A DNA stretch of 27,463 nucleotides from a virus. The DNA lies in IMG/VR virus record IMGVR_UViG_3300035661_001949, positions 1-27,463 of that record; one strand, written 5' to 3'. Below are positions 591-21,186 of the stretch, in pieces. Every line of letters starts with the position of its first letter. The stretch's first letter is position 1. The notes below the pieces were generated by a model. It searched no databases, was not told the origin of the DNA, and saw nothing but the letters and a program-made list of their open reading frames with translations. Position numbers and translations under genes: made by a program.

Positions 591-3533
591 TTAGAAATCT
601 CGATTACCATACAGAAAATTGCGATTGGCTGTAAGCATAGCCTGAAAGTTGGGATCAAATAAATCATCAAAAGTAAACTTTCGATTAGTAGGCAACATAC
701 TAAAACTATCTAAATTTTCAGAGGGAAATTGAGATATGAGAGGCACACCAATAAAATCCTTAGTTGATTGCATTCTTTCAAATTCCTCAACAGGATGTTC
801 TAATTCCATGTCTTCTAATCCAGAGCCATCGTATACTCCAGACTTAATCTCATGATATATTTTGAGACGATTAGCCAGTACTGAAGGAGAAATGCCCATT
901 CTTTGAGAATGGTACTCTAAATATTCAGGTGAATAATCTCCTACGGCACTCATTTGATTAGTTTCAGTGATAATACTAAAATCACTAAGAGGCTTGTGTA
1001 TAAATTCTTTTGGTGTAAGTTCAATCAAAGCAAGAGCAAGAGCTATTATAGCATCATCATTACTTCCCCTAGTTGCTTCAAATTTTCTGGAGGCATCTGC
1101 ATAAAGCGTACCAGCGGAGAAGTTAGCCATTTGCATTTTTAGTCTGGCTGATCGTAATCGTCCCATATATACCGGGTTATTAAAAAACAATAAAAGTTTC
1201 TCAATAAGCAGAGGTCTTGTTTTTCTATTAGTCATAAATCCTGGAGTACTTGCTTGTGCATCATACCAAATATTTCTATATCCTTTTTGCTCAAGGAGAT
1301 AAAATAATATATCAGAATACGTATTTGCTTCTATGATTAATAAAGCATTATTGTAATGACGAGCAGTTTTTATAAGAATATCGGCAAATACTTCAGTTGG
1401 TAGTTTTCCGAGATACTCAGCATGTTGTTCTATAGTATCCTTATTAATAACTTGAAAACTTGTTGAATCTTTTGCAGTAGACTTATTACTGGCGCAATCT
1501 ACACCAATTATATAATTTTCGCCATACTCAGCAGTTTTCCAGATGTGTAAAGTATCTTCATAAGTTACTCCACCAAAGGCCCTATTTAAAATCTTGGATG
1601 ACGGTTCAAATGCCTGCAATGCTTCTCTTGAAAAAAGAGCGTTTTGATTCACATCAAAACAACAGTTATGAACCGCCCTACCGTCAACAATATAAGACTC
1701 GTCATGCTGTACTGAAATATTGTATACTAAACCAGTGTAAGGAACTTCTTCTACTTTAGTAACATACGCAGCTATTCCATATTTAGCCCTATTAAGCTTA
1801 TTACTTTTAGCTTCTACATCATCAGGTATAAATATCTGAACTGAATAAGAATGGCTACAGTTTATACTTTGTCCATTAATCATGCCAGTGTATGCCGATT
1901 TTTCAGTTATTCCAGCAGCATAGTTACGACCCAAACTATTAGCTAATAACTGTACCTGATAAGCAAGAGATTTACTTATTGTATGAAAGGAATACTTTTT
2001 TCCTTTACCCACACTATAACAACCATCACCCAACATCAGCTCATCAAAAAATTCAGTTTCCCAACCAGAAATAAGACCAAAAGGAATACGCTTGTTACTT
2101 GAATGATTTCCGCAAGAAGCCTTGAAAAAATCTGCTAACGTGCAATCATTTATCATAACCTGCCAACCAGTTGCGAATTTGGTAGTATATTTGATATTTA
2201 AAGCGTCTAAATAACTACACACTCTATCTCTTTCGCTTTCTTTATTACTCAAAGAAAACTGAAATTGATTTTTTGATCCGCTTCCCTCGCAAATGTACCA
2301 TGCTAATAACATACACAAGGAATGTGAAAGTATTTTAGTAGTTCCTAATTGAGTTTTAGGAAAAACAATCTTATCTCCTACACGTACATCTATAGCTTTA
2401 GTCCATAAATAAGTTTGATTTTCTTTATTATAAAGACGTATAGGATGTTCTGGAGTAGATATCAGCGGAACTCCAGTACCATAGGAAGAAATAGATGTCA
2501 GATTGCCAGAGAAGAACTTATTCATGGTGGCAGTGATTTTTCTTGCGCGGCCTGTATGAGAAATAACCATATCACCAACAGTTAAAGTCTCTATAGGTTT
2601 CATACCAAGGGTAGTTAAAACGGTAGTACCCGGCATAAAGCATTCATATTCCTGCTTAAACTTGTCAAGATTACCATTGTCTATTCGTATCTGGTCAGCT
2701 TTAAAATTAGGGTTTTTAGCGAAAATAGAAGATACCGTCCAAGGAAGGTCAAACCATTTCCAGCCATTAATTCCAGCCTTGGCTAACGTAAAGGTAGTAT
2801 AGAACCAGTTTTGATCACTGTTACCGTTAGGCGTAGATATGGCAATAAGCTTACCATCAGATGCAGATATGGTAGGCAACAAACCCTTAATTACCTCGTC
2901 GCACTTTGGAATGAACGCGGCCTCATCAACAAGGAATACTGTAGCACTAAAGGAACGAGCAGCGTGTGGATTGGATGTAATAGCCTTAACACTGGATTTA
3001 GTCTCAAATTCTACAGTACTTTTACTATAAAGAGTACAAGATGGTTTCAACCACTCAGGTAAAAATTCGTACGCAGTCTTGAGTTTAGTAATATACTCTT
3101 CCGCAGATTCTTTTCTGTGGGCTACAACAAGACAACGTTTACCAGTACTAAAAATACTCAGCCACAATGAGTAGAACATGAGTGAGGTAGATACACCCAA
3201 CTGACGAGCCTTATTACAAATTACATATTTGTCACTCTGGAAGGAACGAAGCAAATCTTTTTGATAAGATTCCAACTTAAACGGAATAATACCCGCACCA
3301 CCAGGGCCAGAAATTAACCCATAATTTTCAGCAAAATAGGTTACATCATCGATACACTTCTGTCGTTCACTATTAATATAAGTAACCAAGTTAATTTTAA
3401 TTTGTTCCTGGCTAAGACCCTCAGACCGCCATTTAAATACTAATCTCTCTGGTTCATAACATTTGTGAGATTTATCCTCATAGTTAGATAAGTATTTTTT
3501 AGCATGCTGGGGTTTTCCGTTATTATTAATCAT
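591..3533 (-). CDS. Large terminase subunit (T4 gp17-like) interrupted by an intein
   Basis: This is the ATP-driven DNA-packaging motor and headful nuclease, acting at the portal. The precursor has 980 residues; without the intein it is about 654, close to T4 gp17 (610). The ATPase domain shows a deviant Walker A, ARQLGVSTS (residues 109-117), Walker B VFLVDEAAF (199-207) and the coupling motif AISTPNG (231-237). The RNase-H-fold nuclease domain shows the acidic triad: D679 in IGVDC, E735 in LLIIEAN and D826/D827 in SNDDA. The intein occupies residues 298-623 and splits the ATPase domain from the nuclease domain at QEYE/C. The start codon overlaps the stop of the upstream gene as TAATG, which implies translational coupling. 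All catalytic residues are present on both sides of the intein, so a functional motor depends on protein splicing. Confidence 0.95.
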   Translation of the reverse strand: MINNNGKPQHAKKYLSNYEDKSHKCYEPERLVFKWRSEGLSQEQIKINLVTYINSERQKCIDDVTYFAENYGLISGPGGAGIIPFKLESYQKDLLRSFQSDKYVICNKARQLGVSTSLMFYSLWLSIFSTGKRCLVVAHRKESAEEYITKLKTAYEFLPEWLKPSCTLYSKSTVEFETKSSVKAITSNPHAARSFSATVFLVDEAAFIPKCDEVIKGLLPTISASDGKLIAISTPNGNSDQNWFYTTFTLAKAGINGWKWFDLPWTVSSIFAKNPNFKADQIRIDNGNLDKFKQEYECFMPGTTVLTTLGMKPIETLTVGDMVISHTGRARKITATMNKFFSGNLTSISSYGTGVPLISTPEHPIRLYNKENQTYLWTKAIDVRVGDKIVFPKTQLGTTKILSHSLCMLLAWYICEGSGSKNQFQFSLSNKESERDRVCSYLDALNIKYTTKFATGWQVMINDCTLADFFKASCGNHSSNKRIPFGLISGWETEFFDELMLGDGCYSVGKGKKYSFHTISKSLAYQVQLLANSLGRNYAAGITEKSAYTGMINGQSINCSHSYSVQIFIPDDVEAKSNKLNRAKYGIAAYVTKVEEVPYTGLVYNISVQHDESYIVDGRAVHNCCFDVNQNALFSREALQAFEPSSKILNRAFGGVTYEDTLHIWKTAEYGENYIIGVDCASNKSTAKDSTSFQVINKDTIEQHAEYLGKLPTEVFADILIKTARHYNNALLIIEANTYSDILFYLLEQKGYRNIWYDAQASTPGFMTNRKTRPLLIEKLLLFFNNPVYMGRLRSARLKMQMANFSAGTLYADASRKFEATRGSNDDAIIALALALIELTPKEFIHKPLSDFSIITETNQMSAVGDYSPEYLEYHSQRMGISPSVLANRLKIYHEIKSGVYDGSGLEDMELEHPVEEFERMQSTKDFIGVPLISQFPSENLDSFSMLPTNRKFTFDDLFDPNFQAMLTANRNFLYGNRDF
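1665..2642 (-). mobile_element. Intein with LAGLIDADG homing endonuclease, in the large terminase
   Basis: This in-frame insertion encodes 326 residues. The N-terminal splice junction is QEYE/CFMPGTTV with Cys1 at residue 298. Block B is STPEHPI (TxxH, residues 360-363). The C-terminal end is GRAVHN followed by Cys624, giving the standard His-Asn/Cys chemistry. Between the splicing blocks lie two dodecapeptide motifs of a LAGLIDADG-type homing endonuclease, LLAWYICEGSG (409-419) and FFDELMLGDGCY (495-506). Both keep an acidic residue at the expected catalytic position, so the endonuclease may be active. Terminases are known intein hosts and this junction lies at the ATPase-nuclease boundary. 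Boundaries were checked at the codon level: TGC at 2642-2640 and AAC at 1667-1665. Confidence 0.92.
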
Positions 3534-6515: not shown

Positions 6516-7370
6516 TTAATCAAGCTGTGAACGAAGTTCATCTAAGTCAATTTCACCATCATCCTCATTTAGAATGGCAGGAGCGACCTTACTTGGGGCC
6601 TTTTTCATATCTGGCCTGGGAGAAAGCAGTGTTCGTTCCTCTTCCTCATGCTCGACGGGACCTGACGAAAACTCAGCAAACTTAGCCTTAAGCTCCTCAC
6701 TCTTTAGCGGAGTGACAATAGAAGAAAGATCTGGTGACTTCTCAACCAAGAGATCCCAAGTTTTCTTGCCTCCTTCAGCTTTTTCAAAAGCTACTGACTT
6801 ATCTCCAAAATCAAGAACAATGGTATCAAAACCACCCTTTGTAGTGGCCTTACTCTTTGAGTACTCAACAATTCGACCGTCAGTAAAATCACAGAAATCT
6901 ACACCCTTTTCAAGTTTAGACTCTAGGAGTTCCATATTCGTCTTAGAGGAAACTCTAACAATCTTAAGATCAGCCTCTGTGATATTTGAAGGATCAATAG
7001 CATCAGCTTCATAACCCACTAAAAGATAATGAGTTTTTACAACAAGTTTCTTAAATGCGTCCTTATACGCCTCATTTTCAGTCTTAGTATAGGTACGAAA
7101 AGTCTTCCATGCTAAGTCACAGAAGGGGCACTCACCCATATCCTGCTTCTTAGGACAGGCGATAGATTCAAAATGCCCGTCTGGAAAAGTTACTGCATGA
7201 TGATGATAGATAGTGAGGGGTAGTTCCAGGTCCTCATTTTTGAGCGGAAGAAAACGTAGCTGGTATCGCTTACCTGTTTCCGCCTTAAACCAATTACTAC
7301 TAGTACTTTGTTTCTTTGCCTTACTGGCTTCAAGCTTCTGCTTAAAACGATCAAAGTTAGTTTGTGCCAT
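6516..7370 (-). CDS. Single-stranded DNA-binding protein, T4 gp32-like
   Basis: The product is 284 residues (T4 gp32 is 301). It coats single-stranded DNA during replication and recombination. The layout matches gp32: a basic N-terminal region for self-cooperativity (FDRFKQKLEASKAKK, 6-20), an OB-fold core with zinc ligands, and an acidic C-terminal tail (EDDGEIDLDELRSQLD) that contacts partner proteins. The zinc site reads as His in HHHAV (56-58) or nearby H66, then C72, C81 and C84 in CPFC, comparable to the gp32 pattern His-Cys-Cys-Cys. The ATG at 7370 has AGGAG nine bases upstream. It is the first gene of the leftward block and its leader is strongly structured, a setting like the autoregulated gene 32 mRNA of T4. 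Confidence 0.88.
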   Translation of the reverse strand: MAQTNFDRFKQKLEASKAKKQSTSSNWFKAETGKRYQLRFLPLKNEDLELPLTIYHHHAVTFPDGHFESIACPKKQDMGECPFCDLAWKTFRTYTKTENEAYKDAFKKLVVKTHYLLVGYEADAIDPSNITEADLKIVRVSSKTNMELLESKLEKGVDFCDFTDGRIVEYSKSKATTKGGFDTIVLDFGDKSVAFEKAEGGKKTWDLLVEKSPDLSSIVTPLKSEELKAKFAEFSSGPVEHEEEERTLLSPRPDMKKAPSKVAPAILNEDDGEIDLDELRSQLD

Positions 7371-7674: not shown

Positions 7675-8907
7675 ATGAGTTCTTTAACATTTAGAAATTC
7701 TTTTGCTTCTCGCTATAAATTAGGAGAGAAAAGAAAACATCTATCTGAAAGAACTCTTAAAACCGTATCTCCAATACCACCAATACTGATTATAGATATA
7801 GATTACTTTTGTTTATTGTTAGAAAGTAAACAAAAATATAGTAAAACTAATATCAACTGTAATACTTATATACGACAATGGATAAATTCAACTGTCAAAT
7901 ATGTCCTACCAAGTAATATCATGGCAGTGTACTCTGGAAATACCTCTGTTTGGACTGAACCAGTAAGGAATTTTTTTATTGGTCACACTATTCCAGTATA
8001 CAATGAAGTTATATCAGACTTTATATTTTCTGCTAAGTTATCTGGATTAATCTCTACTCCCGCTTGCATTATTACAAATAATTTTTCTACTTGGGCAATC
8101 AGCAATAAATCTGCGGAACTTTCTTTTGTTGCCATAGACTCTAATAATAGAGTGTTAGTATATAATAACAGTACGGGGTTAGATTTCTTTTGCAAGTTTA
8201 TAATGACTAATAAAATTATCAACAAGTTGGGATTACAACATATAAAATATCTGAACCTTCAATATTTATATGTGATTTTATTATACTTAAACTTCATGAA
8301 TCAAACTCCTGGAACTCCTTTCTACTTTGACGAAAAGTTTATGTGCTCCTTACCTAAACACAAAGCAAAGAATCAAGCCTTTTCCAGATCATCCGGTATA
8401 GGTTTAGATCTTATATCACAGGCTCATAAGTTTTTAAGCTATGCCTTTTTAACTAAACCAGAATTTATGGATTTATTTCTTTTTAGTAATGGTATGGACT
8501 ATACACTACATCTATCCCGCTTACCAAAACTAATTTCTTTGGATATCGCTATACTGGATCGATTACATACCTTTTATTTAGCTAATTATAAATTAAATAC
8601 CCTTCAATTAACACCGCAACAAGTAATTAAGATGGAACAACCAGACCTTTATGGTTCAGTTTTATGGTCTGACATTTCTGTACCACTAACTACATTACAT
8701 GACAATGCAGTTCGTGTAAAACTTATAAACCGGTATCTTAAACTATACCCCTCTGCAGATGTTACAAAACTAAGCCTTACTATTTCTCCTTCTTTTCGAA
8801 AAGAAATAAAAAGAATCAACAAGATTTTACCTGATATGGCCGATACTATACCTAACGAGACAGATACTTATATCTCGTCCTTACTGGCAGGAATATTTAA
8901 TGGTTAA
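7675..8907 (+). CDS. Degenerate FEN/PIN-fold-like protein, probably non-catalytic
   Basis: The product has 410 residues and no family I can name with certainty. Its first 220 residues can be laid beside the FEN nuclease encoded next door. PILIIDIDYF (35-45) matches SVILVDGNNL; MAVYSGNTSVW (83-93) matches MYVTFDNGGSL; EVISDFIFSA (111-120) matches GIEADDFIGIA; CIITNNFSTW (131-140) matches IVILSNDSDF; and LYVILLYLNFMNQTPG (198-213) matches the helix before the nuclease's IGDVSDN motif. Of the metal-binding acids only D41/D43 and perhaps E111/D115 remain; the DxD and GDxxDN aspartates are replaced. The C-terminal half is unrelated to anything I recognise. It overlaps the nuclease gene by 8 bases. 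A structural or DNA-binding partner role is an inference. The ribosome site (AAGAA) is weak. Confidence 0.6.
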   Translation: MSSLTFRNSFASRYKLGEKRKHLSERTLKTVSPIPPILIIDIDYFCLLLESKQKYSKTNINCNTYIRQWINSTVKYVLPSNIMAVYSGNTSVWTEPVRNFFIGHTIPVYNEVISDFIFSAKLSGLISTPACIITNNFSTWAISNKSAELSFVAIDSNNRVLVYNNSTGLDFFCKFIMTNKIINKLGLQHIKYLNLQYLYVILLYLNFMNQTPGTPFYFDEKFMCSLPKHKAKNQAFSRSSGIGLDLISQAHKFLSYAFLTKPEFMDLFLFSNGMDYTLHLSRLPKLISLDIAILDRLHTFYLANYKLNTLQLTPQQVIKMEQPDLYGSVLWSDISVPLTTLHDNAVRVKLINRYLKLYPSADVTKLSLTISPSFRKEIKRINKILPDMADTIPNETDTYISSLLAGIFNG

Positions 8908-9943
8908 CCCTAAATTTGTCGGAGAAAAGAGCGTTATCCTTGTAGATGGTAACAATCTCTTGATCCGAATACTATTCGCCAAAAATAAGGGTAACAATCT
9001 ACTAACTCCTGCTGAACTTATTGAGTCATGTGCTCATATTTTCATGCATCAACTAAGCATTTGTGCGAAAAAGTATAGCTGTGATCGTATGTATGTGACT
9101 TTCGACAATGGTGGTTCTCTTAGAAAGAAAGCGCTATTCGATGAATATAAGGGTAATAGACAATTTCAAGCCTCTTCTGGAGCAATGGCAGCATTTAATG
9201 AACCTAATACAACCCTATTTGCTGAATTAAAACAGGTTGTATTAAAGCTGTGTAATATATTTCATATTCCGGTATTTACAGAATATGGAATTGAGGCAGA
9301 TGATTTTATAGGTATCGCTTGTGAGGAATTAAAGAAATTAGGTAAGAAAATTGTTATTCTAAGCAACGATTCTGATTTTCTTCAGCTACTCACTGACTCT
9401 AATGTAGTTTGTAGTATCCCCTATAAAAAGATGGATGTTACAAAGGATACCTTCCCTGCCTTCTTTTCTGATCTTTCTAAATCACGCGGAGTTACTATTT
9501 CTTCTGGAGAGTATCTATTCTATAAGGCTCTTATTGGAGATGTTAGTGATAATATTGATGGTATTGATCGATTAGGATATAAGACATTATTTAAATTAAT
9601 GAATGAACAACTTAAAACTGAATCCGAAGAAGTGATATCTCTATATATGAAGGATACATTAGCTTATGCCGAACTCCTGGCTTCTCGTAATGACTCCGTC
9701 TTAGAGAAGAAGATAGCAGCTAATATCGACCTTATTAGAAGAAATTATAAGCTTATTGAGTTATCCTCGAGATATATCACCGGTACTGTAGTTCATTTAA
9801 CCTTAAAAAAACTGACTGAAGTTCGGGAGGCTCCTTCTCGCAAGGAAGTATTCAACGAAGTAAAAGCTATCCTGGGTACTTCGAACTTAGAATTTACAGT
9901 CAATACGCTTTTTAGTCTAAAATCTACTTATCTTCCGGCGTAA
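8900..9943 (+). CDS. FEN-type 5'-3' exonuclease / RNase H (T4 Rnh or T5 D15 family)
   Basis: The product has 347 residues, slightly longer than T4 RNase H (305) and T5 exonuclease (291). These enzymes remove RNA primers and 5' flaps on the lagging strand. All family motifs are present: D16 in ILVDGNN, D69 in VTFDNGG with the basic gateway RKKALFDEYKGNR (75-87), E132/D134/D135 in GIEADD, D157 and D159 in LSNDSDF, and the helix-three-turn-helix GDVSDNIDGI (213-222) carrying D214 and D217. The start ATG lies inside the end of the upstream gene, with AGGA about eight bases before it, so the two are coupled. It heads the replication genes that continue with the HD phosphohydrolase and the primase. 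Confidence 0.92.
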   Translation: MVNPKFVGEKSVILVDGNNLLIRILFAKNKGNNLLTPAELIESCAHIFMHQLSICAKKYSCDRMYVTFDNGGSLRKKALFDEYKGNRQFQASSGAMAAFNEPNTTLFAELKQVVLKLCNIFHIPVFTEYGIEADDFIGIACEELKKLGKKIVILSNDSDFLQLLTDSNVVCSIPYKKMDVTKDTFPAFFSDLSKSRGVTISSGEYLFYKALIGDVSDNIDGIDRLGYKTLFKLMNEQLKTESEEVISLYMKDTLAYAELLASRNDSVLEKKIAANIDLIRRNYKLIELSSRYITGTVVHLTLKKLTEVREAPSRKEVFNEVKAILGTSNLEFTVNTLFSLKSTYLPA

Positions 9944-9975: not shown

Positions 9976-10530
9976 ATGAGAGTGCAAGAACAGGTTATCT
10001 TAGTTGATACCATTACTGGCCTGACTGGGGTTAAGAGATTCCATGGCCACAGTACAATTCATACTCAATCCGTGTCTGATCACTCTGCAAGAGTAGCCCA
10101 GCTTGCCTTTTTAATCGCATTAGAGTATTATAATGGTGATGTAGCCAAGGCCAATTCAGTAGCTGTCCTAGGTGCCTTCCACGACCTAACAGAGGGTATT
10201 TTAAAGAACGATGCCAACTCTTCGGTTAAATCTAAGTATGGTATTAGAGAAGTTCTAAAAAAATTAGAAACTGATATTGTGGAAGATTTGTTTCAAGACA
10301 CTATTATTAGAGATCTTATTTTAGAGCGCACTGATGAAGAGAAGTATAACCTAATGAAACTGGCTGACACTATAGACTTCGGACTGTTTGTTTGGGATGA
10401 AATTATGACCGGAAATCGTCATATGCTTCCACTTATTGATTCCTTTAAAAAAGAAATCTCCAAATATCCCAAAGAAATGCTGGCCTTGTCCTTTACTCAT
10501 GTATGTATAGATAAAATTATGAGCTTCTAA
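9976..10530 (+). CDS. HD-domain 5'-deoxynucleotidase, YfbR-like
   Basis: This 184-residue HD hydrolase resembles Escherichia coli YfbR (199 residues), which removes phosphate from deoxynucleoside monophosphates. Metal ligands line up with that family: H36 in SVSDHSARVAQLA, H69-D70 in GAFHDLTE with E73, and D131 in MKLADTIDFGLFVWDE. R21 is the equivalent of a substrate-contacting arginine, and NSSVKSKYG (81-89) corresponds to the YfbR 'TPVKY' loop. The start has a good TAGGAG site seven bases before the ATG. It sits between the FEN nuclease and the primase, so a role in tuning the nucleotide pool during phage replication is likely. Exact substrate preference cannot be read from sequence. Confidence 0.82.
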   Translation: MRVQEQVILVDTITGLTGVKRFHGHSTIHTQSVSDHSARVAQLAFLIALEYYNGDVAKANSVAVLGAFHDLTEGILKNDANSSVKSKYGIREVLKKLETDIVEDLFQDTIIRDLILERTDEEKYNLMKLADTIDFGLFVWDEIMTGNRHMLPLIDSFKKEISKYPKEMLALSFTHVCIDKIMSF

Positions 10531-11432
10531 TGAGCGAGATAATTCTACATTGCCCTCATTGTCCTCCGGGTAAATCAAATAAGCTATATATAAATGTTGA
10601 ACTTGGCATGTTTAACTGCTTTAGATGCGGTTTTAAGGGAAGTATTAAAAAATTATATAAGTATCCAGAGCTTATCGCAAAACTTGACGACCAGCTCTCA
10701 CTGGCTGAAAGTAGCAAACTTAAGAGTTTTAAACCGCTGGAGATAAAGTCCCACGATATTTTGTCAGATCTGAATCCCGTTAGAGAGATTATATATACTG
10801 ACCCGCAGTGGGATTATCTTATTGGTCGTGGATGGACTGAGGAAATGATTCAAGCCTATCGACCTTTGGTATCTAAAACTCTTAAGTTTGCTGATCGGGT
10901 TATCCTTCCAGTATTTGATCACAATGATAACCTGGTTTATTTTACAGCCAGAAGTATAGATCCTGAGACTACTTCACGCTATCGCAATGCTGAGGTATCC
11001 AGAAAAACTGTTCTTTTTGAGTCCAAGATACCAGAGGCTGAATTGTTCCCCGATATTGGTTTTATCACAGAGGGTATTTTTGATGGTGCTAAACTTCCTA
11101 ATAATGTTTCCTTGTTGGGAAAGGTATTGAGTTCTGAAAATGAAGGCAATTTGATAAACTTTTTCAGACAGCGTAAATCTATTTACGTGTGTTTGGATGC
11201 TGGTACTGGATTGATTATGCAGTCTTTGTGTGCCACCTTACAATCCTGGTTTCCAAATAAAGCCATATATTATATAATTGAAGAAGCATATCAAAATAAT
11301 GATCTTGGTAAACTTGGAGAGACTCTATCGTCTGTCCAATTGGTTAGTTGGATTAAGAATAATAGCATTCGTTATGTTCAACCATCACTTTCTTCTAAGT
11401 TGAGAAATAGGTTTGCTCTGATATCAGCTTAA
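10530..11432 (+). CDS. DnaG-type DNA primase with zinc finger and TOPRIM domain
   Basis: This 300-residue protein should make RNA primers for lagging-strand synthesis. The N-terminal zinc-binding domain has C8, C11, C30 and C33 (CPHC and CFRC). The RNA-polymerase-basic motif reads RVILPVFDHNDNLVYFTARS (123-142), very close to the DnaG core. The TOPRIM domain shows the catalytic glutamate E181 in ITEGIFDG, the acidic turn D223 in VCLDAGTG and a last acidic motif NNDLG (256-260). The usual DxD at the second site is reduced to DAG. There is no C-terminal helicase-binding domain, as expected for a short phage primase; no helicase is encoded in the window. Its ATG overlaps the preceding stop as TAATG. 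The family is clear, but full activity is uncertain because of the altered turn. Confidence 0.87.
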   Translation: MSEIILHCPHCPPGKSNKLYINVELGMFNCFRCGFKGSIKKLYKYPELIAKLDDQLSLAESSKLKSFKPLEIKSHDILSDLNPVREIIYTDPQWDYLIGRGWTEEMIQAYRPLVSKTLKFADRVILPVFDHNDNLVYFTARSIDPETTSRYRNAEVSRKTVLFESKIPEAELFPDIGFITEGIFDGAKLPNNVSLLGKVLSSENEGNLINFFRQRKSIYVCLDAGTGLIMQSLCATLQSWFPNKAIYYIIEEAYQNNDLGKLGETLSSVQLVSWIKNNSIRYVQPSLSSKLRNRFALISA

Positions 11433-15063: not shown

Positions 15064-18000
15064 ATGGCTCAGTTTTTATTCAACCATCTCTTCGAAGCAA
15101 AAAAGACCGGTGGTAAGCGTATTGAAGATCTGCAAAATAAACATGCTGATACTATCATGCCTAAAGAAAGAGAAAATAAGCTTCGTTCTGAAAATGAGGT
15201 TAATAAATCCGAAGGCCCGCAACTTTTTGCAGCCAAATTAGCTTCTCTTGTATATAAAAATAAGCGTATGGGTAATATTCGTATCAAGAAATGGGAACCT
15301 GGGGCTATTCAAGTAGGTGGAGGATCTGTTTCTGGAACCATTGATAAGGAAATTATACCTAATTTAGATGCTTATCTCACAAAGGCAGTTCCACAGCATC
15401 TTCGGACATCTCTCGGAGACATTAAGAAAGCATTTATAGGTCACTTAAACGGACTTGTTTATACCGGGTTACCACAACCGTCATCAAAGAAAACAGACCT
15501 TTCTGGAAAACGTAAGATTTCTCGCTTAAATGCATCAAATTTTGTTATCAATACTCCTAGTGATGACGATATAAATGTAATTAAAGCAATCAGTGGAACC
15601 AAATTCAAAGTTCCTTCTTCTAACGATACCCTTATTTCTTTTCTAAAACAAGTGACTGATAGGGTAATGGCTACACTTATTGCTGACGGAATGACACCGA
15701 CCTCAATGGCAGTAGACCAGGGACTGAAAGAATTTAATGCACTTCGTCAGACTGTTTTAACAGGTAAGCCAGAGAATATAAAATTTGCATCTCTTACCAA
15801 GAAGTCAAAAGCTACTACCGATGAAGAGCGTGGCAAATTAGAAAAAGAGTTAAAGAACGAACAAAAAGCTATTTTAGCATATGTAGCATTAGTTTTTCCA
15901 TTTTTGGACCCAAGCGTATCAAAAAAAATCGTAACTACTACGGGTAACTTTTTCCCCTCAGTAGGACAAAAATACGAGGGTGTTGCATTAAAGGCTCCTC
16001 TAAATTTATCTGACTTAACTGATTTTGCTGGATTTTCTAGCGTTAGGAATATAACGTTAAAAAAAGCATTGCAAAAGGTTAGAAAAGAATTGTTATCTAA
16101 CCCTGAGTTTAAAACCCTAGCAGATTCTGTTGGTAATCTTCTTTTTGAAGCTGCAAGAGCTGAGTCTATTCTTCCTCTTATTGCTAGAAAACGCATAGCA
16201 AAAAACATTTTCTATTCCTTTTTGGCAGCTGCTTCACCGAAAACGTTAAATATTGCCGAGATTGATAATGCCAGATTTATGACTTCTGCGTATAATCCGA
16301 GTAATTTGAGTATTAACGATAAGATTGCCTTTATTTCAAACGTTTCATTGTCTCTGGCTGCGGAGGCTGTTAAAGAAGCGGAACAAGCTCCAGAAATTCT
16401 TTCTAATCTACGTGGTCAGAATGCTCGTCAGGCCCTTGCTAAGTCTATTACTAGTGGTCAGAGGGCTTTTGACGCGATGCGTGGAAGTGATTATACAGAT
16501 AAAAAGATAGCAGGTGATGCCCTTTCTGTTGATCAAATGATTGACCTTGGGTTTGACCAGCCAGAAGGTAAAAAGATTGAGACATTGTTTCTTACCTGGC
16601 TTCAGAGCGATGCATATAGTTCAACAGCATCGCAGGAATTAATTGATCAGATTTCAAATATGATCAAGGAGCAGAAGACTAATCAATCCAAGAACTCTCC
16701 ACTAAAGCAATTAAAACAAAACCGTGCTTATGGTGCTCTTGAGGCTCTTCTTGATGATCTACATGCGTTAACCAAGGAAGATTTCGATCTTTTAAAATAT
16801 ATTAAGAAACAACTTGAAAACTTTGACGCTGGTCTAGCTGTTGCCAAAGAAACAGATACAGATGAAGTTCAAAGCATTGACGATATTCGTAACGAATATG
16901 ATTTAGTATTTAAGAAGTTTAAACGTAGAGTGGAAGATTTATTTAAAATAGATCCTCGTCGCCACAGTGCTATGGAAACAGTTCTTGGTCTCTCTTCTCT
17001 TGATATGCGCTTAGTAAACGCTGGCCGGAATTTACAGGCTTATCGTAGATCAGAAGCTTCATATAAGAGAACGGCAGCAAAAAAAGCCACAATGACCAAA
17101 CAATCAATTTCTGCCATTTCTGCCCTACTCGACACAATAGATTTAGAGGCCCTTTTCTCAGCAGATGAGATAGCAACTATTTTAGAAGATAAAGTTGACA
17201 AGTATGTTCACTTCTTAATACCTAGTAGGTTAGAAGCTCCAGTATCTGTTGGAGATACTCTAATTTCATCTGCTTCCTCTGAGGAGGAGGTTAAAGATGC
17301 TATTATGAGTCTAGTAACATCTAAAAAGAAAAAAGAAGATATTATACAAGAACTTAAAGGCATAGTTATTCCAGTAACTCAAAAGTTATCGGCATCTGAA
17401 GCTAAGGAAAATCTTCTTGATTATATTGACTCTCCAGTAATTGAACTTGGTGTATCTCTTTCAAAATTTACTATACCAACAACAGCTACTAAAGATACCC
17501 TTCTAAAAGAACTTGTTAAATACCTCAAAACTCAATCAATAGAAGATTCTACTCGCATTATTTATTCTCTTGCCCGTCTTCCTTTAAAAACAGGTCCCAA
17601 ATCAACTGACAAAGAAGAAACGCTTAGCGACTCTTCTGAATCTCCGGAGGCTGTTGCTAGATTAGATGCATTAGAGTCTATTTCGAATGCATTTTCTGCT
17701 TTTTCACCCCTAAACCAAACTATTTTAAAAGATGCCACTAAATTACAAACTAATCGTCTTCGTCGACAGGCAGCACTAGCTAAAATTAATATCCTCAGAC
17801 AGTCCCCAGCAATTCTGTCAGGCTTCTTACAGGATATATTACAATTGCTTCAAGCGGCTCCAGCAGAGGTTCAGCTGGCCTTAAAGGGAATTCCAGTAAA
17901 TGATCCACAAGTTGTATTTGACTATGTGTCTAAAATCTTATCTACTCTAATTAAAGATTCTCAACTTTCTTCCTTATTAGATATACAAGAAAATACTAAA

Positions 18001-21000
18001 GATTTTGCCATTGGTTCTACAGCGTCCGCGATTTCTTCCTTAGCGGAAAGAGGAAAAGCATATGAAAACTCTGAATTAAACCCAGTAAAATCATTTGATT
18101 CTGAGCTTTCTCCAGCAGTAAATCTTCTTATTAACTTGGCTGCTTCAATTAAGACGTATAATGGTATTAAGTTAAACAAAGATGGAGCACCGGTATTTGA
18201 TTTTACTTTTGATTCAACGCTTTCACGTGTTGGGTTTTTACAAATGTTAGATACCTTATCATCAGAACAATCAGTAGCTGCAAATATTTCTACCTCAGTT
18301 GCTACCAAACTATGTGTGCAAAGATATTTCCTATCTCGCATAGCAGAAATTCTTACAGAAGTATCCCCTAATTTAACTGTAAATTCCTTTATTCCAAATG
18401 AATTTAAGAAAGATTTTCCAACACTAGTTCAAGATATTGAATCATTTATTGACTCAGTTAAGCATGGCAGTGACGAAGTAATGGCTCTTGTTAAGTCATT
18501 AGATGATCGTATTATTTCTATCATTGGTGGATCTAATCTTCCGTTACTTACGAAAGATAAAAATAATAAAATTATAGTAACTCCTAACGAAAAGAGTATT
18601 GCTATTCCGGATAGTTCGGCAAGTCCAGAATACCCTTCTGCTATTCAACGAGTAGCCTTTGCTTCCTTAGTCGGTATTGGTGTTTCAAGTTCAGAGCTTG
18701 GAATTAGCAAACAAACTGCACTTATTGCATCCTTTTCCAAGGTATTAAATGATTTAACCACTAAAAAGGATAGCTCTGTACAGAAATTTACTAATGCTTT
18801 AAATTTAATACAAAACCTTATAGTAATTGAGTTAGGTAAAAAGTACTCTGGATCAGATGACTTAATTTCTAACGCTATTAGATTTATTGCCACAGAAAAT
18901 GCCTCTGATGAAGACAGGGAGGCCATTATTAACGGTGTAACAGCCATTCAGCATCTAACCGGATCCTTTAATTCCAGACTCTATACTAAAACCGAGTTAG
19001 ATAAATATGCTAACGCTCGAGAACGAACAAATCCTCTAATTAACGGTATTCTGGGTTTATTTTCATTTGATAACCTTGCAGAAGATAGTAATCGTGAATA
19101 TGAAGATTTTGCTAGAAACTCTTTCAGCAAGGAAAACAAACGCGATTATCCCGGAATTCATAAAAAAGAAGAAGGCATTACCAAACTAACTGCTCAACAA
19201 CTAGCGGAGACACTTGGTGTTGCCTATATGGACGTAGTAAAGGGTGGTCGAGATAATATTCGAACTCTTGGTGAAGCTGTTGAAGGCACACCAGAATCGG
19301 AAGAACCTAATCCAGTTCAACAGGCCATCGAAACTGCTGGGGCTACTCTAGGAATTGATATCCCCTCAACTCCAGTATTTAAGCAAAATTTGACAGCTAC
19401 TGGTTCCCTTTTACAAATCAATCCAAAAGCTGCCCTATTATTTAAGTCCGCTTCCAGTAGATTCCATGGCGGTTATATGGGTCAAACAGTTCGTGATGGA
19501 CGAGAGTCTGACAGACTTCGTACGATTAAGTCATATGCTGAATATATTAATGCGTCAAAATCATCCGCTCCTTCTGTACTGGATACATTTAAACGTCTTT
19601 ACGATCCCAGCTTATTTCCATCACAGTTTAAGTCTCTTGATCCCTTCTTTACTAATGTTATACCTAATCTGGATAAGTTGAATGCAGCCATTAAACTCAT
19701 TGGTTCTTCCCTTGATGATAACCAATCACTTATGTCAACTGTTGAAGGCCAGACCAGACTATTCACTATTCTGAAGCAAATGAAACCTACATCGTTAGCA
19801 TGGACTAAGCCTGATATAGATTCAGACGGATTAAATAAAAAACAATTAAAAGCTGTTACCTCACGTCCTCTCAATCCAATCGAACAAGTAATAAAGCTAT
19901 CTTCTTCACCTGACGGAGTAGAGAAACAATTCGATAAGATTGATAACCGAGTTGTTACTGAAGGGTTGTCGGCATTACTTCCCATAATCCTAAATAAAAC
20001 TTCTTGGAAAGAAGTTAGTTTTGCCTACAAGAAGCTTTCCCCTAAAGATAAGAGAGCCGCTGCACTAACTGAGTTTGAAGAGTACCCAGGAGCTCCAGAT
20101 CCAATCGAGGTTGATCCAAATGCACCAATACCTGAACCCGGTACACCACAACCGCAGGCTAAGAGAAAGTTTCTACATCTTTATCTAAATGACTTTATTC
20201 AGCAAGTTGATCAGATGGTTGCTTGGATTGCTAATGCGAGAGCGCAAGGTAAATTACCTGCTGACTATGATTTTACTAAAAATAAAAAATTCATGGAAAT
20301 TTATGGTACTTTATTTAGTTCAACTACCTACAGTATTTGGCCAGAACAGACTGGTATTTTAGAGAGTTTGGCTACAAAATTGTCAACTGTTATTTCAAGA
20401 GAAAATCAATTACAGATTGAAGCAGCTATTAAGGCTCATCCAGTAACCAATATTTTAGTATCTGCTATTTACGGTAGAGATTTACAAAATATGGCTAATC
20501 CTGTTCATAGGGGACATTTAAAAACTATAAGTGATGACATAGCTAATTTATGGGCTAAAATTAGAGAGCTAAAAACTAAACTAACTAATGACACTGAAAA
20601 AGCTACTATTACTCGTCATACTAATATGATTAAACAACTTCATGCTCAGATTAATGAACTGGAAAATGAAAATAAGACCATGTTAGCTGATACCATTGTA
20701 AGAGATGCAGATAATCCACGAAATATTATTGGCAAGTATTCTGCATCAGTCGCTCCTAAAACAGTGGAAGAATCTTTCAAGTTGGCTATGTCTTTACTTT
20801 CGCTACAAGAAGGAACCACTAATCCTACTGTCGCCAAAGAAGTAGCATCTAAAATATATGGTCTTTTATATAGGTCTGAAAATTTTAGAGTTCCTTCTCC
20901 TACAGATCCCTTTACTAATAATAATTATGAATTTAGTACCTTTATTGAAGCAGTGGCTCCTTATCTGTATTTGGCTCCTCTTCAAGTAACCTCAGAAACA

Positions 21001-21186
21001 ACAAAGATAGATAATTTTAAGTCAATTTTTAAGATTTCTGATGAAATGTTGTTTATTCTAAAAAGTGGAGAAACAGCCGCTGCCAGACTAACTGATTTTA
21101 CTGCGTTGACTTCGATTGCTTCTCACTTTACCCCAATTGCTATGTCTAATCCAACCCAAGAAGATACAGAAGATGCCGCAGAATAA
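15064..21186 (+). CDS. Giant 2040-residue protein, probable internal head or virion protein
   Basis: I do not recognise a family. The protein is almost entirely predicted helical and polar, without signal peptide, membrane segments or enzyme motifs that I can see. The first eleven residues, MAQFLFNHLFE followed by AKK, resemble T4 capsid-targeting sequences cut after L-x-E. A Pro-rich linker lies near residues 1675-1700 and a coiled coil near 1822-1880 (IRELKTKL, INELENENK). The ATG has AAGGA ten bases upstream. It is the largest gene of the window, heads the right-hand block, and its stop overlaps the next gene. Possible roles are an internal head protein packaged and perhaps ejected with DNA, or another large virion component such as a baseplate or tail protein. 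The packaging idea is inferred from the N-terminus alone. Confidence 0.6.
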   Translation: MAQFLFNHLFEAKKTGGKRIEDLQNKHADTIMPKERENKLRSENEVNKSEGPQLFAAKLASLVYKNKRMGNIRIKKWEPGAIQVGGGSVSGTIDKEIIPNLDAYLTKAVPQHLRTSLGDIKKAFIGHLNGLVYTGLPQPSSKKTDLSGKRKISRLNASNFVINTPSDDDINVIKAISGTKFKVPSSNDTLISFLKQVTDRVMATLIADGMTPTSMAVDQGLKEFNALRQTVLTGKPENIKFASLTKKSKATTDEERGKLEKELKNEQKAILAYVALVFPFLDPSVSKKIVTTTGNFFPSVGQKYEGVALKAPLNLSDLTDFAGFSSVRNITLKKALQKVRKELLSNPEFKTLADSVGNLLFEAARAESILPLIARKRIAKNIFYSFLAAASPKTLNIAEIDNARFMTSAYNPSNLSINDKIAFISNVSLSLAAEAVKEAEQAPEILSNLRGQNARQALAKSITSGQRAFDAMRGSDYTDKKIAGDALSVDQMIDLGFDQPEGKKIETLFLTWLQSDAYSSTASQELIDQISNMIKEQKTNQSKNSPLKQLKQNRAYGALEALLDDLHALTKEDFDLLKYIKKQLENFDAGLAVAKETDTDEVQSIDDIRNEYDLVFKKFKRRVEDLFKIDPRRHSAMETVLGLSSLDMRLVNAGRNLQAYRRSEASYKRTAAKKATMTKQSISAISALLDTIDLEALFSADEIATILEDKVDKYVHFLIPSRLEAPVSVGDTLISSASSEEEVKDAIMSLVTSKKKKEDIIQELKGIVIPVTQKLSASEAKENLLDYIDSPVIELGVSLSKFTIPTTATKDTLLKELVKYLKTQSIEDSTRIIYSLARLPLKTGPKSTDKEETLSDSSESPEAVARLDALESISNAFSAFSPLNQTILKDATKLQTNRLRRQAALAKINILRQSPAILSGFLQDILQLLQAAPAEVQLALKGIPVNDPQVVFDYVSKILSTLIKDSQLSSLLDIQENTKDFAIGSTASAISSLAERGKAYENSELNPVKSFDSELSPAVNLLINLAASIKTYNGIKLNKDGAPVFDFTFDSTLSRVGFLQMLDTLSSEQSVAANISTSVATKLCVQRYFLSRIAEILTEVSPNLTVNSFIPNEFKKDFPTLVQDIESFIDSVKHGSDEVMALVKSLDDRIISIIGGSNLPLLTKDKNNKIIVTPNEKSIAIPDSSASPEYPSAIQRVAFASLVGIGVSSSELGISKQTALIASFSKVLNDLTTKKDSSVQKFTNALNLIQNLIVIELGKKYSGSDDLISNAIRFIATENASDEDREAIINGVTAIQHLTGSFNSRLYTKTELDKYANARERTNPLINGILGLFSFDNLAEDSNREYEDFARNSFSKENKRDYPGIHKKEEGITKLTAQQLAETLGVAYMDVVKGGRDNIRTLGEAVEGTPESEEPNPVQQAIETAGATLGIDIPSTPVFKQNLTATGSLLQINPKAALLFKSASSRFHGGYMGQTVRDGRESDRLRTIKSYAEYINASKSSAPSVLDTFKRLYDPSLFPSQFKSLDPFFTNVIPNLDKLNAAIKLIGSSLDDNQSLMSTVEGQTRLFTILKQMKPTSLAWTKPDIDSDGLNKKQLKAVTSRPLNPIEQVIKLSSSPDGVEKQFDKIDNRVVTEGLSALLPIILNKTSWKEVSFAYKKLSPKDKRAAALTEFEEYPGAPDPIEVDPNAPIPEPGTPQPQAKRKFLHLYLNDFIQQVDQMVAWIANARAQGKLPADYDFTKNKKFMEIYGTLFSSTTYSIWPEQTGILESLATKLSTVISRENQLQIEAAIKAHPVTNILVSAIYGRDLQNMANPVHRGHLKTISDDIANLWAKIRELKTKLTNDTEKATITRHTNMIKQLHAQINELENENKTMLADTIVRDADNPRNIIGKYSASVAPKTVEESFKLAMSLLSLQEGTTNPTVAKEVASKIYGLLYRSENFRVPSPTDPFTNNNYEFSTFIEAVAPYLYLAPLQVTSETTKIDNFKSIFKISDEMLFILKSGETAAARLTDFTALTSIASHFTPIAMSNPTQEDTEDAAE

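Follow-up and report, generated by a model that had tools for sequence, protein, structure and literature searches.

A predicted FEN-fold pseudo-nuclease encoded beside an active FEN in a group of uncultivated phages

This study revealed a family of phage proteins, here called pseudo-FEN, that is kept beside an active-type FEN (a 5'-3' exonuclease) and that, judged from its predicted structure, is a new family of FEN-fold pseudo-nucleases, i.e., degenerate enzymes encoded beside an active relative. The window, meaning the whole stretch of DNA analysed, is a virus record of 27463 bases from a phage, and in this contig pseudo-FEN is the 410-residue product of positions 7675-8907 on the plus strand. 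On balance, we favour the reading that this product is made with the active FEN and serves as its non-catalytic partner. Its most likely role is in lagging-strand processing, as a putative DNA-binding protein that assists FEN and does not cut. A first-pass annotation had noticed the likeness of the two neighbouring products and the loss of metal-binding aspartates. That observation was confirmed, and is stronger than first stated, while the interpretation built on it was partly supported.

On the plus strand from 7675, the pseudo-FEN gene is followed by the FEN gene (8900-9943, 347 residues), a YfbR-like HD nucleotidase (9976-10530) and a DnaG-like primase (10530-11432), the last two recognised by profile matches. 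The minus strand carries an intein-bearing terminase, a sigma-like gene, UvsX and a gp32-like single-stranded DNA-binding protein (6516-7370), the divergent neighbour of pseudo-FEN, which was recognised by profile matches and is part of surroundings conserved among relatives. Both ORFs of the pair were present as originally described, sharing eight bases (ATGGTTAA, positions 8900-8907, plus strand) with a ribosome-binding-like AGGA just before them. The FEN ORF was matched by Pfam (5_3_exonuc_N, E 6.7e-23) and by PHROG, is similar to T5 exonuclease sequences in the PDB and has all nine metal-binding acids. Elsewhere in the window, the large terminase subunit (591-3533, minus strand) contains an intein-like insertion with Hint, intein-splicing and LAGLIDADG profile matches, which is apparently absent from a relative (L002:1371-3335) of 654 residues as compared with 980, and an ORF of 2040 residues (15064-21186, plus strand) had no match in Pfam.

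Relatives of pseudo-FEN, at least partial, were found on 19 IMG/VR contigs besides the window, with identities to the window protein of 94% (L001), 58% (L005), 40% (L010), 33% (L006, L007 and L036) and 24-28% (L038, L039, L040 and L042). Queries with three family members, including the window product, matched none of the phage isolate records, and a scan of genome contigs for prophage or host copies gave no relative. In all 14 other contigs in which both genes are complete (L001, L005-L010, L036, L038-L042 and L044), pseudo-FEN is the gene immediately before FEN, with both on the same strand. The two genes overlap in 12 of these 14, which supports the proposal of joint production; the shared stretch measures eight bases for the window, L001 and L005, seven for L036 and the L038-L044 group, and one for L006-L008, and the L009/L010 type alone has a gap instead, of 100 bases. 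Each of five contigs of 54-213 kb carries one copy of pseudo-FEN and one FEN. A family HMM found no member at more than 60 distant FEN loci (FEN identity of about 31% or lower), and the family thus seems to have been added within a single group of phages. The genes upstream of these distant FENs were considered as hidden relatives; those inspected were mostly UvsX, with one GroEL-like gene, and none matched the family HMM. By eye, extra genes resembling mobile or homing-type endonucleases were seen inserted near FEN, gp32 and UvsX in several relatives (L038:6008-6895, L042:6629-7525, L042:1338-2063 and L009:977-1690). In the 213-kb contig of one relative, a family-A DNA polymerase is represented by two ORFs with about 8 kb between them, of 622 residues (L127:352-2220) and 442 residues (L126:1108-2436).

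Pseudo-FEN is a real gene under purifying selection. Its dN/dS is 0.14 between the window and L001, and 0.16-0.23 in the other within-clade pairs with an estimable dS. It evolves faster than FEN (58% against 87% identity from the window to L005). The trees of the two proteins are broadly congruent and recover the same groups, the root and the placement of L036 being unsure, and their pairwise identities correlate at 0.96. The first 30 residues have a net charge of +2 to +11 across the family.

The main rival to a FEN partner is a stand-alone replication accessory that has a FEN-like fold and binds forks or junctions without touching FEN, for example as a substitute for the T4 helicase loader gp59. 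We consider this rather unlikely; adjacency to FEN would then reflect a replication operon only. The location of the pseudo-FEN gene between gp32 and FEN suits such an accessory; in T4, genes 59, 33 and dsbA lie between genes 32 and rnh. However, gp59 is all-helical, whereas the structural model of pseudo-FEN matched FENs, although the protein could still be a functional analogue. The basic character of the family (pI 9.2-9.6) also agrees with an accessory, as does the recognition of branched DNA and recruitment of gp32 by T4 gp59 (PMC3012046), but the overlap is specifically with FEN, while the gp32 gene is divergent.

With regard to the catalytic site, the nine metal-binding acids of FENs were placed on the family through secondary-structure elements, which gives an inferred register and not a superposition of coordinates. 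In the partner FENs, D16, D69, E132, D134, D135, D157, D159, D214 and D217 were present in all 13 rows, and among 54 more distant FENs eight of the nine were found in nearly all. In this register the pseudo-FEN of the window keeps two acids (D41 and D115) and has lost seven, in line with the early remark that most of the metal-binding aspartates are gone; across the 11 aligned members only D41, equivalent to T4 D19, is invariant. The other eight positions are occupied by N, S, K, T, V or Q, and sometimes by D or E. Among the Cat1 carboxylates (T4 D19, D71, D132 and D155), only the D19 equivalent appears to be conserved, and the D155 equivalent is an asparagine in seven of the 11 rows. The Cat2 carboxylates (T5 D155, D201 and D204) correspond to S138, N206 and N209 in the window protein and are variable in the family. 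In T4 RNase H, replacement of D19, D71, D132 or D155 by asparagine abolishes activity in each case (PMC3012046). The predicted loss of catalysis, which the first-pass annotation had proposed, is therefore well supported by the acid pattern over the 11 members. The arch segment, from the second strand to the E-x-D-D helix, is reduced as well, to 17-33 residues in the family and 25 in the window protein, as compared with about 63 in the partner FEN.

Alternatively, the active site of pseudo-FEN might be rearranged rather than dead, so that the protein would still cleave some nucleic acid through D41 and non-canonical residues. The invariant D41 closes the first strand, the polar residues Y44, H251, K261, R282 and D290 are also invariant, and a few members have extra acids at FEN positions, such as L038 with a D-x-D. 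Yet the equivalents of T4 D71, D132 and D155, each essential in T4 RNase H, are not conserved acids, and ExoIX, which lost Cat2, kept Cat1 (PMC3783174), whereas pseudo-FEN would have lost Cat1 too. Continued cutting is accordingly improbable, and a non-catalytic partner of FEN is the reading that we retain.

Sequence comparison of the family with FENs gave no significant similarity. The 410-residue product matched no Pfam or PHROG family, including PF02739, PF01367 and PHROG 107, and when the family profile was run against PDB sequences, only a chance match came back. Comparisons of the family with FENs by BLASTP, hhalign and HMMER with decoys remained at noise level; one weak hhalign alignment (score 17.8, P 0.18) was in the expected register, and pseudo-FEN was no closer to the neighbouring FEN than chance. 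The resemblance to FENs therefore rests on the predicted fold. An AlphaFold2 model was built from an 11-row alignment (A7) that contains family members alone and zero FENs, and it reached moderate confidence (pLDDT 69, pTM 0.73). In this model, a strand (37-41) is followed by a helix, a strand (81-86), a helix, a strand (108-110), a helix (113-123), further strands (130-133, 149-154 and 160-164) and a helix (195-209); the second half of the protein is helical. The best PDB matches in Foldseek were PlEXO1 (9l56), ExoIX, GEN1 and the M. smegmatis FEN. VIA-align gave Z 13.0 for PlEXO1 (rmsd 4.2 over 221 residues), 12.8 for ExoIX (4.2 over 206), 11.9 for T5 FEN (4.1 over 211) and 10.0 for T4 RNase H (5.2 over 210), the matched span running from residue 34 to about 320-326 and including the core as well as the helical half. 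All 50 of the VIA-align matches listed were FEN, Exo1, GEN1, XPG or PIN proteins or PolI nuclease domains, and the matches in BFVD include phage 5'-3' exonucleases. A FEN fold, with a PIN-like alpha/beta core and a helical DNA-binding half, is thus a well-supported prediction, and the likeness first suggested for residues 30-225 extends even wider, over residues 34-326. The model thereby withstood the refuting condition set at the outset, a fold for residues 30-225 unlike that of FEN or PIN proteins. That pseudo-FEN is instead an unrelated alpha/beta protein resembling FENs by chance is hard to believe: similarity in sequence is not significant and a shallower first model, from six mostly close sequences (pLDDT 44), gave only meaningless structural matches, but the better model found only FENs and PIN proteins among its top 50, at Z values above the 7-8 that is typically the best for unmatched models, over core and helical half alike.

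The five segments singled out at the outset fall in the second model where they had been claimed to lie. IDIDYF forms the first strand and AVYSGNT the second; SDFIFSA lies in the helix where FENs have E-x-D-D, ITNNFSTW at the strand end with D-x-D, and LYLNFMNQ at the helix end with D-x-x-D. The protein begins with a basic segment (residues 1-29; 7675-7761), mostly of low model confidence, in which G17 and R26 are invariant in A7. The predicted PIN/FEN-like core spans residues 34-210 (7774-8304). Residues 237-260 (8383-8454), an S-x-G-I-G-L stretch and a long helix, may occupy the position of the H3TH hairpin motif, which binds duplex DNA in FENs, as suggested by the order of elements, by the helices of the model and by a G-x-G at 241-243 that is present in nine of the 11 rows. 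Residues 316-410 (8620-8904), of low to moderate confidence, comprise a variable linker, followed by a short segment at the C-terminus whose outline is conserved. This tail (8842-8904, plus strand) follows the outline DTI..YI..LL..IF or TS.AVD.IL..LAW, and part of its conservation is explained by the FEN start and ribosome-binding site that overlap it. The tail was considered as a binder of the gp45 clamp and rejected, since no gp45 or family-B polymerase was found in the contigs, including that of 213 kb, and the conservation stems in part from the FEN start.

The origin of pseudo-FEN by duplication of the neighbouring FEN, as initially put forward, is plausible; as similarity has decayed to noise, it looks the same as descent from a more distant FEN-fold gene. 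Pseudo-FEN shares its predicted fold over residues 34 to about 320 with the T5 D15 exonuclease and T4 RNase H, whose replication surroundings are also those of the partner FEN, and differs from both in lacking seven of the nine metal-binding acids, in its shorter arch segment (25 against about 63 residues) and in an identity of only about 10%. Pseudo-FEN was not filed as a flap endonuclease because the acids, the arch and the profiles fail, though the predicted fold fits. E. coli ExoIX (Xni), among the best structural matches, is likewise a reduced FEN, one that lost Cat2 alone and kept Cat1 and activity (PMC3783174); pseudo-FEN appears to lack Cat1 as well and so departs from the pattern of the Xni/ExoIX subfamily. 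The composite PIN endonuclease SMG5-SMG6, which is the known precedent for an arrangement of this type, pairs a degenerate PIN-fold paralogue with an active one. It acts in eukaryotic RNA decay, and its PIN domains have no H3TH. There, the degenerate domain completes and stimulates the active one, and SMG5 gives an acid to the active site of SMG6 (PMC12923823), a lending that is a feature of SMG5. A literature search, of incomplete coverage, found no phage pseudo-FEN.

A partner role is supported by the fold, the lost acids and reduced arch, the adjacency and overlap of the genes, co-inheritance, purifying selection and basic charge. Counted against it are the failure of sequence methods to link the family to FENs, the complete appearance of the partner FEN, the faster evolution of the family, the moderate confidence of the model and a residue register taken from secondary structure; to our knowledge, moreover, most phages have a FEN with no protein of this kind beside it. 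Having a FEN-like fold without the cutting residues, pseudo-FEN probably holds or positions DNA for FEN instead of cutting it. The H3TH-like half may still grip the duplex side of a nick, flap or fork, next to a dead active site that would no longer cut. The protein might in this way position the junction, protect it or keep FEN tethered on the lagging strand, in the manner that SMG5 helps SMG6 and that contacts with gp32 and the clamp serve T4 RNase H. Since T4 RNase H contacts gp32 and the clamp (PMC3012046), a protein that tethers FEN or holds the junction would suit the context of replication. A putative physical complex of pseudo-FEN with FEN is plausible.

FENs have been described as single-chain enzymes, aided by clamps and single-strand binding proteins. 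More tentatively, and in our estimate with less than an even chance, the phage FEN may be a hetero-oligomer in which pseudo-FEN is an obligate subunit that shapes the junction or a composite active site; such a two-subunit FEN would, if real, have arisen within a single group of uncultivated phages with large genomes. The pairing of an active FEN with a degenerate FEN-fold protein would provide a simple system in which to ask how a dead relative tunes a structure-specific nuclease, a question now also posed by SMG5-SMG6 in eukaryotes, and it allows a fold to be predicted, and a likely role proposed, for a family unrecognised by the profile libraries used here.
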